Positions 3,924-29,003 of a DNA stretch of 64,000 nt are shown piece after piece; the stretch's first letter is position 1; each line of letters starts with the position of its first letter. A program made the position numbers and the translations under genes. The notes below the pieces were generated by a model. The model was not told the DNA's origin, searched no databases, and saw nothing but the letters and a program-made list of their open reading frames with translations. The stretch spans positions 2,542,001 to 2,606,000 of the forward strand of contig NZ_JAUSXB010000001.1 in assembly GCF_030823375.1 (NCBI RefSeq). Reading direction: 5' to 3'. The stretch is from Pseudarthrobacter siccitolerans (GTDB lineage: Bacteria; Actinomycetota; Actinomycetes; Actinomycetales; Micrococcaceae).

Positions 3924-3944
3924 CTGAACCCAGGCTGGGTTCAG
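3924..3944. terminator. Hairpin between convergent ptsI and hydrolase genes
   Basis: Perfect inverted repeat CTGAACCCA-ggc-TGGGTTCAG starting 5 bases after the ptsI stop and overlapping the stop codon of the convergent hydrolase. It has no T-run on either side, so its strength is uncertain. Its position suggests a shared bidirectional terminator. Confidence 0.6.
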
Positions 3945-4735
3945 GCCGTGACGCCAAACCCGTTCACGGCCCGGACCCAGCCGCTGATCGCCTGGGCGGC
4001 GATCGCCGGGGCGGTGTGCTGGAAGACGTGGCCCTGGCCCAGGACCTCGGCCATGATGCCCTGCGGGGCAACCCCGGCAAGGTTCTCGCACCAGGGGCGG
4101 CGGGCGATGGGATCCCTGGTACCGCGAAGCACCAGGACGGGCTGCCTAACGCCGGCCAGCCGTTCCTCCAGGGGGTATTCCATCATCACCGGCAGTTCGG
4201 TCAGGTACCAGCGCGGGCCAGCCCGGAAGTAGTCGCTGAACACAATCGCGTTGGAGGTCAGGGACTCGCTGAACATGGAGTCCCGCGTCAGCGCGAGGGC
4301 CTGCTGTGCCACCGTTTTCCGGCTGGGCTCGACCACCGGGCCCATGAGCACTGCCCCGGCCACCCGATCAGGTTCCTTGAGCGCCAGTTCCACCGCGAAC
4401 TGGGTACCCATGGAGTGTCCCACCGGTACGTAGGTGGAAACGCCCGCATCGGCCAGGACCGCGCTGACAAACGCGGCAAAGTCTTCAACCTGCAATTGGC
4501 GCTGGGGCCGTGACGACTTGCCAAAGCCGGGGAGGTCGAAGGAGTAGACGTCGGCCGCTTCGGCCAGCTCGCGGTGCAGCCGCGCAAGGTAGCGGTGGGA
4601 GACGCCTATGCCGTGCAGCAGGACGTAGGTGGGGCGCCCCCCGGTCCCGCCAGCCACCCCTGCAGGCTGGACGGAAGCGTAGAGCCTTCCCTGTAAACCG
4701 CCGGATTCAACGTCCCGGCCACCACTCAATGCCAT
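3941..4735 (-). CDS. Alpha/beta-fold hydrolase
   Basis: Soluble serine hydrolase of 264 residues; substrate unknown. It has the oxyanion-hole HG motif (LLHGIGVSHRY), the nucleophile elbow GHSMGTQ (Ser about 120), a probable acid in LRGTRDPIARR and the catalytic His in GQGHVFQH. The family includes esterases, lactonases and C-C hydrolases, and nothing here separates them. Divergent from the small HTH gene at 4793. The start follows TATGCT by 6 bases, consistent with a leaderless transcript. Confidence 0.85.
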   Translation of the reverse strand: MALSGGRDVESGGLQGRLYASVQPAGVAGGTGGRPTYVLLHGIGVSHRYLARLHRELAEAADVYSFDLPGFGKSSRPQRQLQVEDFAAFVSAVLADAGVSTYVPVGHSMGTQFAVELALKEPDRVAGAVLMGPVVEPSRKTVAQQALALTRDSMFSESLTSNAIVFSDYFRAGPRWYLTELPVMMEYPLEERLAGVRQPVLVLRGTRDPIARRPWCENLAGVAPQGIMAEVLGQGHVFQHTAPAIAAQAISGWVRAVNGFGVTA

Positions 4736-4741
4736 CAGGTG

Positions 4742-4786
4742 AGCATACCGTCAGAACGGCGAAGGCCCCGGTAAGCCCGATAGGCT
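4742..4786. promoter_or_regulatory. Divergent leaderless promoters for the hydrolase and HTH gene
   Basis: Two -10-like boxes point outwards: TATGCT on the minus strand (4742-4747), 6 bases before the hydrolase ATG, and TAGGCT on the plus strand (4781-4786), 6 bases before the ATG at 4793. Neither gene has a clear Shine-Dalgarno sequence. The -35 regions overlap in the 33 bases between the boxes. Confidence 0.55.
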
Positions 4787-4792
4787 GGGGCC

Positions 4793-5194
4793 ATGGCACT
4801 GATCGCTCCCAGAATCGCGGACGCCCTCCCGCCCGAGGAGGCCGGGAAGCTGCAACGGGCCCTCGCCGGCAGCGACGACATCACTGTTTTTGTGGACGGC
4901 ACAGTCCACCGGCTCCCACCCCTGGCGCGGGACGCCGTCGTGGACCTCCTCCGACGGTTCAGCCGCGGCGAGGCGGTGACGGTCAGCAGCGTCGAGGACA
5001 TGCTGACCACCTCGAAGGCTGCGGAGCTGGCGGGAATCTCCCACACCTACCTGCGGAACATGACCGACCGCGGCGAGATCCCCGTGGAGTACCGCGGCAG
5101 CCACCGGCGCATTCCGCGGACCGCCATCATGGCCTGGCTCGAGGAGCAGAAGAAGGTCAAATCCGGGGACGAGCCGCCCAGCGCCGCATCTTGA
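4793..5194 (+). CDS. Helix-turn-helix (excisionase-family) DNA-binding protein
   Basis: Protein of 133 residues. Residues about 66-115 form a MerR/excisionase-like winged HTH: MLTTSKAAELAGISHTYLRNM, then EIPVEYRGSHRRIPRTAIMAWL. The N-terminal 60 residues (VDGTVHRLPPLARDAVVDLL) resemble the dimerisation part seen in chromosomal antitoxins and regulators of this group. In other genomes such proteins often pair with a PIN toxin, but none follows here. Its last 38 bases overlap the end of the convergent PucR gene. No phage genes surround it, so a role in excision is unlikely. Confidence 0.75.
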   Translation: MALIAPRIADALPPEEAGKLQRALAGSDDITVFVDGTVHRLPPLARDAVVDLLRRFSRGEAVTVSSVEDMLTTSKAAELAGISHTYLRNMTDRGEIPVEYRGSHRRIPRTAIMAWLEEQKKVKSGDEPPSAAS

Positions 5195-27107: not shown

Positions 27108-29003
27108 CTAGCTTGCCTGCCGCAACGTTTGAGCACCTGTCCACGTGCTGTCCGCCCGGGTGCCTGCCAGTTGGGGCGCCCAGCCGTCCGTTCCCTGCAG
27201 ATAGGCCTCCAGCGTGAAGTCCCCGGCCAGCTCCGGCTCCAGTTGCGGCCTGTCCGGAGTTATGCGCGCTCCCGGGCCGTGGTTATTGAACTCATGGAAG
27301 CGTGCCTCCCGCCAGGAGAATCCGCTCATATCCGTCCAGGGCGTGCCGGAGATGTGGGCACCTAACCAGGAATCCCGGACCAGGACCTGGGCAATGGCGT
27401 CCACGTCGCCGCTGGGATGCCAGGGCCGGCCCAGGTGAACCGATCCCGCCGCAGCTTCGGAGGTAAACCGGCAACCGGTAAAGAGGTACCCGTGCTTGAT
27501 CTTGCTGTTCTGGCTCCCGGCGGACACTTAGCCGTTGTTGCTTCCGGAACCACGGTCCAGGGACCGGATCCCGCAATTTGAAAAAACGGCCGTCCCGCGG
27601 CCAAAGATGAAGTCCACGTCGCCTTCCACGTAACAGTCGCTGAAGAAGAACCGTGCGGGTACGCCGCGGGCGGGCGAGTCAACCAGGAGGGTGTCCTGGT
27701 TGCCCAGGCACCGGACGTTATGCAGGACAGCGCGGTCCCCTGTCAGGAAGAGTGCCACCGCCTGGCGGTTCGCTATGTGCTGGTTGGCCGCTTCGTCAAA
27801 GTCGTTGCTGAACGTGAGGTTGGAAGCAATGAAATCGGCGCCGTCGATCCGTACGCTGGCGCTTCCGCCGGTGCCGAAGGATCCGCTGCCATCCGGCTTG
27901 GGAGTACCGGAGGCATTGTTGTAGACCAGCACAACGTCTTCTGTGCTCTCCCCCAGCCCGATAAAAGAGACTCTGGGTTTGTCCGCCGGGACCCTGATGG
28001 CCTCGCGGTAGATCCCTGGCTGGATCCGGATCAGGGTCCGGCGGGTGGTTCCCGGGGGCACGGAGTCGACAGCCGCCTGGACAGTCCGGAAGGCCAGGCC
28101 TTGACCCACGTCAAGGACCAAAGGCTTGTCCACCGGGCGTTCGCCGGGCCAGTAAATACCTGCCAGGGGATCGAGGGTGGTGTTGAGCTGGAAATACCCC
28201 GGTGGGATCGTCTGCTTTGCCTGCAGTTCGGAGGCAACGAGCTTTGCCACGGCAAGGGCGCCCTCCGCCTGGAAGTGTGTGTTGTCGGCGACCCCGTTGG
28301 GGTACTGCGGATATTGACCGGGTGCCGTATGCAGGAAGTGGGTTTTGGTTCCCTCGGCGCCCAGCTCCTGCCAGAGGGCCTTCGACGAGGCGGTGAGGTC
28401 CACCAAGGGCGTGCCGGTGGAGGCGGCAAGCTCCCGCACGGCCTGCGGGTATGCGCCATGGGAGTCCTGGGCACGGCCAAGGGGACTAAACCTGCGGCGT
28501 TCCACCGGCGTGACCAGGACGGCCTGCGCCCCCTTTGCAGCGGCACCGTCGAGGTACTTTTGCAGGTACTCCTTGAAAGTGGTTTGAGAATCTGTGCCCC
28601 TCGCCGGGTCTTCCACTTTTTCGTCGTTGTGGCCGAAGGAAATGAGGAGGTAATCGCCGGGCTGCAGCAGGTCCAGCACCTCCGCCAGGAGGCCGGCATC
28701 GGCAAAGCTCTTGGACGAGGCCCCGGACCAGGCGTAGTCGAAGACGCCGGCCTGCGGCCCCAACAGCAACGGGAGGGCCTGTCCCCACCCGGCGCGCGGA
28801 CGTTCCGAATGCTGGTACGCGGAGGAGGTGGAATCGCCGACGACGAAAATCACCGGCCTGGAGCGGGAAGAACTTGGGCTGGCTGTCCGGACGGCGGCCA
28901 GGGATTCCCCCGCGCCCGGCCCTGCCAGCCCCGCGGCCGCGGTAACGGCTCCTGCCGCCGCGGCCGCCAGAAGGGAGCGGCGGCTGGGTTGGAAGCGGCG
29001 CAT
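27108..29003 (-). pseudogene. CE12-CE8 pectin esterase fusion interrupted by an in-frame TAA
   Basis: Would-be secreted enzyme removing acetyl and methyl groups from pectin. The twin-arginine signal is SRRSLLAAAAAG. The SGNH acetylesterase domain has GDS (56-58), GHND (124-127) and DNTH (240-243). The pectin methylesterase domain (about 298 on) has GIYRE, QAVAL, Asp437 (QDT) and Asp464 (DFIFG). After SNNG (491) there is a TAA at 27528-27530. The same frame continues at once for 139 residues with HGYLFTGCRF, the essential LGRPW motif and the family's normal C terminus. The usual residue at the stop is Tyr, so a TAC/TAT to TAA change explains it. The truncated form should lack methylesterase activity; the acetylesterase part may survive. 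Confidence 0.85.

Follow-up and report, generated by a model that had tools for sequence, protein, structure and literature searches.

The minus-strand gene for a GDSL-pectinesterase fusion is interrupted by a single in-frame TAA, which occupies codon 492 in a frame of 631 codons that is open elsewhere, and this stop is probably a recent, genuine nonsense mutation by which the methylesterase would have been lost, with the acetylesterase part perhaps kept. The gene lies in a window (the whole stretch of DNA that was analyzed, 64,000 nucleotides) corresponding to positions 2542001–2606000 of a 4.43-Mb contig, in a genome assembled into two contigs. By database comparison, the named close relatives belong to Pseudarthrobacter and Arthrobacter. 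The two-domain pectin esterase is of a known type, and the change in its gene is either an ordinary, very young nonsense allele or an error. Among the papers listed in literature searches none dealt with the gene or the allele, which is not proof of absence.

Organization of the interrupted gene

The frame opens with an ATG at position 29003 of the minus strand and encodes 491 amino acids up to the TAA at 27530–27528 (tta on the plus strand), a stop identified by ORF reading, orthologue comparison and a whole-genome profile search. Past the TAA, the same frame resumes with a GTG and runs for 139 amino acids to a TAG at 27108–27110. The 491 N-terminal codons (27531–29003, minus strand) comprise the signal, the GDSL esterase domain and the first part of the pectinesterase domain, and the 139 C-terminal codons with the TAG (27108–27527, minus strand) comprise the remainder of the latter. 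The initial annotation, made from the window alone, had described a single in-frame TAA splitting an esterase fusion, with frame and homology unbroken across it, and this description agrees with the present data, the PF01095 match being found on both sides of the stop, weakly so after it. A pectate lyase gene (PF00544; 29003–30403, minus strand) was identified as an ORF with a profile match, and its stop overlaps the start of the esterase gene by one base. Next to these pectin genes lies a member of the phage-holin-4 membrane family (PF04020; 30627–31058).

The N-terminus contains the sequence SRRSLL (residues 7–12; 28968–28985, minus strand, located by sequence), which we take to be a twin-arginine-like motif and which suggests that the esterase product is exported by the Tat system. 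A GDSL esterase domain (PF13472, residues 54–223; 28335–28844, minus strand) was recognized by its profile with 57.4 bits against a cut-off of 32.9, and the presumed GDSL blocks are present as GDST at residue 56, GHND at residue 124 and DNTHF at residue 240, as expected of a GDSL acetylesterase. The pectinesterase domain before the stop (residues 304–481; 27561–28094, minus strand) covers positions 11–167 of the 298 in the PF01095 profile and scored 104 bits, over the curated cut-off of 27, which places the gene in this family. The piece after the stop covers profile positions 185–269 with 16.2 bits, under the same cut-off. NCBIfam pectinesterase models match both pieces, in each case far under their own cut-offs.

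The pectinesterase motifs are divided by the stop. The motifs GNQDTL (residues 434–439) and GDVDF (residues 461–465) both precede it, and align with residues 153 and 154 (Gln, Asp) and 175 (the second Asp) of the PemA chain. The motif LGRPW (residues 524–528; 27420–27434, minus strand), which aligns with Arg 243 and Trp 245 of PemA, lies downstream, as was noticed in the initial annotation, and is consequently absent from the 491-residue product. The PemA residues were mapped by way of P0002, an intact relative aligned to PemA, and the catalytic roles of the aligned Gln, Asp, Asp, Arg and Trp are assumed here as generally described.

P0002, from Pseudarthrobacter sp. W1I19 (630 amino acids), is a full-length GDSL-pectinesterase fusion with the same domains in the same order and frame, and shares 90% identity with the window protein across residues 1–491, but unlike the window gene it has no stop and forms one continuous enzyme. 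Its pectinesterase domain (residues 301–611) aligns with the Dickeya-type pectin methylesterase PemA (2ntb, 1qjv; E 2e-43), presumably a member of family CE8. Compared with PemA, the window gene has a GDSL domain fused in front, and its chain ends too early to include the catalytic Arg and Trp. The GDSL domain region of P0002 was matched by the acetylesterases YxiM (2o14; E 1e-16) and rhamnogalacturonan acetylesterase (1deo; E 8e-7), whose matched chains are without a pectinesterase fusion. An extracellular pectin methylesterase is reportedly dispensable in a Paenibacillus pectin system (PMC7267202). In the part of PMC12844168 considered here, a pectin-degrading Paenarthrobacter is described with CE8 and CE12 enzymes.

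A search of the whole genome returned a single match to PF01095, reported with one TAA inside, which is the gene described here. Relatives of the GDSL domain were found at three other places in the genome, and at one of these the domain is part of a multidomain protein. The long multidomain protein encoded at about 2627538–2630138 of the same contig combines a GDSL esterase with a YxiM-like binding domain, fibronectin III and a weakly matching rhamnogalacturonan lyase domain.

The stop position in relatives and the constraint beyond it

All 29 orthologues in the genus are encoded by one fused gene, and none has an internal stop. Codon 492 specifies Tyr in every one of them (21 TAC, 8 TAT). A comparison with 49 other loci, drawn from two overlapping genome sets, gave Tyr and no stop in all 49. 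The database search listed 119 proteins besides the window's own, with alignments reaching the stop column in 98, of which 93 have Tyr. These counts bear out the earlier remark that Tyr is usual at this place. The five exceptions among the listed proteins have Phe (P0080), Met (P0108 and P0109) or Asp (P0102), or appear to be frameshifted there (P0063). The last is a JGI metagenome protein of 617 amino acids, in which the 36 residues shown before the column are identical to the window protein; it is out of frame across the column and then partly back in frame, which points to a close relative whose gene is disrupted or whose sequence is poor.

PF01095 was present in 53 of 206 genomes of the genus with 97 matches, and a stop was found inside one of these, the window's own. 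The stop was thus seen in none of the 49 other loci and in none of the 96 other PF01095 matches in the 206 genomes, and it is not normal in the GDSL-pectinesterase family, as far as the available sequences represent it.

The best database match was the organism's own 491-residue protein, followed by two proteins of 630 and 632 amino acids, both 90% identical. The closest sequence found was P0121, a metagenome protein fragment of 216 residues with Tyr at the stop column, which outside this column differs from the window protein at 6 of 215 residues. P0003 and the locus of the nearest complete genome (L116 in genome G164), with 16 and 20 differences, respectively, also have Tyr there. If real, the stop would be younger than the split from P0121.

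Constraint was compared for residues 1–300, 301–491 and 493–631. Between the window and L116, Ka/Ks was 0.141, 0.144 and 0.147 for the three parts, and between the window and a second locus (L117) it was 0.104, 0.106 and 0.204. The raised last value comes from the L117 side, because L116 compared with L117 also gave 0.202 for this part. In comparisons with four relatives at greater distance, Ka/Ks was 0.093–0.155 for the first two parts and 0.071–0.145 for the last. Residues unique to the window in the comparison with both L116 and L117 numbered 22 of 491 before the stop and 6 of 137 after it (24 and 5 for those unique to L116), and invariant columns were kept at 218 of 220 positions before the stop and at all 62 after it. 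No trace of relaxed constraint or decay after the stop was seen in Ka/Ks, invariant columns or lineage-unique residues. Relaxed constraint after a nonsense stop is expected only if the stop is old. Constraint beyond the stop equals that before it, and the stop is therefore very young.

Origin of the stop codon

The finding of a stop in this gene, together with intact genes in close relatives, is the pattern of a recent pseudogene. The low Ka/Ks after the stop would also be expected if ribosomes occasionally passed the TAA, so as to make much acetylesterase and little bifunctional enzyme, and it is explained as well by youth as by read-through. In the part of the survey PMC7918605 considered here, frequent read-through of in-gene bacterial stops was argued from dN/dS below 1; most such stops were also found there to have lifetimes only comparable to those of polymorphisms, and most are assumed to be without functional recoding. 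The cases described in that part of PMC7918605 resemble the present one in the single in-frame stop and the low dN/dS, and carbohydrate metabolism is a frequent category among them, but the stop had to be common to at least two species, whereas the present one was seen in a single genome. The conserved stop expected of programmed read-through was not seen in any relative examined.

The search for a decoding apparatus likewise argued against read-through. Among 50 tRNA genes (matches to the Rfam model, all named by ARAGORN), none had the anticodon tta, cta or tca of a stop-reading suppressor; this search would miss tRNAs that deviate too far from the Rfam model. A tRNA with the anticodon taa was seen, which is a tRNA-Leu and not a suppressor. 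Since TAA terminates 12 of the 50 ORFs picked in the window, the esterase ORF included, a suppressor would be costly. The RNA past the stop is not specially folded: it was less stable than most shuffled sequences (z +1.36), 187 of 200 shuffles folding at least as well, and no stimulating structure was found beyond those of the 200 shuffles. Read-through is thus improbable, and its more specific form, a short-lived dosage switch in which low-level read-through would give much exported acetylesterase and little of the full bifunctional esterase, is slightly more so. As this case shows, undiminished Ka/Ks past a stop does not suffice to tell apart read-through, a young mutation and an error.

An arrangement of two working genes, in which a restart at the GTG would yield the C-terminal piece as a product of its own, is possible in principle, as this codon directly follows the stop, but is very hard to reconcile with the data. 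The initial annotation had noted that the GTG lacks a ribosome site, and the closest run of purines recognized by eye, GGAAG, ends 13 bases upstream of it, which exceeds the usual spacing. The C-terminal piece would be without an export signal and without both Asp motifs. Among 13 database matches to this piece, eight reach the stop column, all with Tyr, five begin further downstream, and none begins at the stop point; the search could find only proteins of 76–243 amino acids, many of which look like fragments. Relatives with two separate genes, each having its own start, were not seen among these 13 matches or among the genus orthologues, which are fused.

An error in the record, i.e. a gene intact in the organism with one base wrong in the assembly, is unlikely, though clearly less so than read-through. 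It would fit the absence of decay after the stop as well as a real mutation does, every relative examined is intact, and one-base indels occur in two other genes of the same assembly over 400 kb, reflecting either real decay or remaining assembly error. Against it stands the quality of the assembly (two contigs, completeness 99.99). The genuine mutation was rated above the error because, among errors, substitutions that make a stop are less common than indels. Of the three readings offered in the initial annotation, the recent pseudogene was the best supported, read-through giving two products received no positive support, and a sequencing error is the less probable alternative to the pseudogene.

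Predicted consequences and other apparently disrupted genes

We infer that the base is real. A genuine, very recent nonsense mutation would have hit the only gene of the genome that matches PF01095, and translation would terminate at codon 492 to give a product of 491 residues. This product would retain the signal and the complete GDSL esterase domain, with an unfinished pectinesterase barrel lacking the end of the beta-helix and the catalytic Arg and Trp. Since the product would lack part of the active site and there is no second PF01095 match, the strain would have no pectin methylesterase, and folding, export and activity of the acetylesterase part may be preserved. Because the Tat system, suggested by SRRSLL, passes folded proteins, export may in addition be impeded by the incomplete barrel. 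For annotation, the gene is provisionally best treated as disrupted and the strain as probably lacking pectin methylesterase.

The surroundings of the gene were compared with G164. In the matching 80 kb of that genome 62 ORFs were picked, and several had matches with a stop or a second segment. The candidate broken gene at window positions 3941–5046 was rejected by DNA alignment, the G164 ORF being over-extended into the region of a small helix-turn-helix gene on the opposite strand. The other flagged matches in the window were assigned by position only to over-extended 5' ends, an alignment continuing beyond the stop of the gene in the window, or the edge of the window.

A wider check compared 400 kb of the genome with 400 kb of G164, using filtered ORF picks rather than annotation and counting no stop that fell within the first 40 or the last 15 residues. 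In the forward direction, 252 ORFs were picked in G164, 197 matched and 13 were flagged: the esterase, two one-base indels (by DNA alignment), the rejected case at 3941–5046, three that were examined further (two taken as antisense ORFs, one as an over-extended 5' end), and six that were assessed by position only.

The two indels lie outside the window, and may represent real decay or remaining assembly error. One splits a LacZ-type beta-galactosidase gene (contig positions 2465521–2468564) over two frames relative to G164, the TIM-barrel domain being divided between both pieces. The other, likewise relative to G164, lies near the start of a SnoaL-like gene (2529182–2529549), which is probably broken. 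The reverse check (257 ORFs picked, 198 matched, seven flagged) was traced in one case to an apparent real frameshift in G164, at about 3012060–3012634 of its contig C1, in a gene that is open in the window's genome (191 amino acids).
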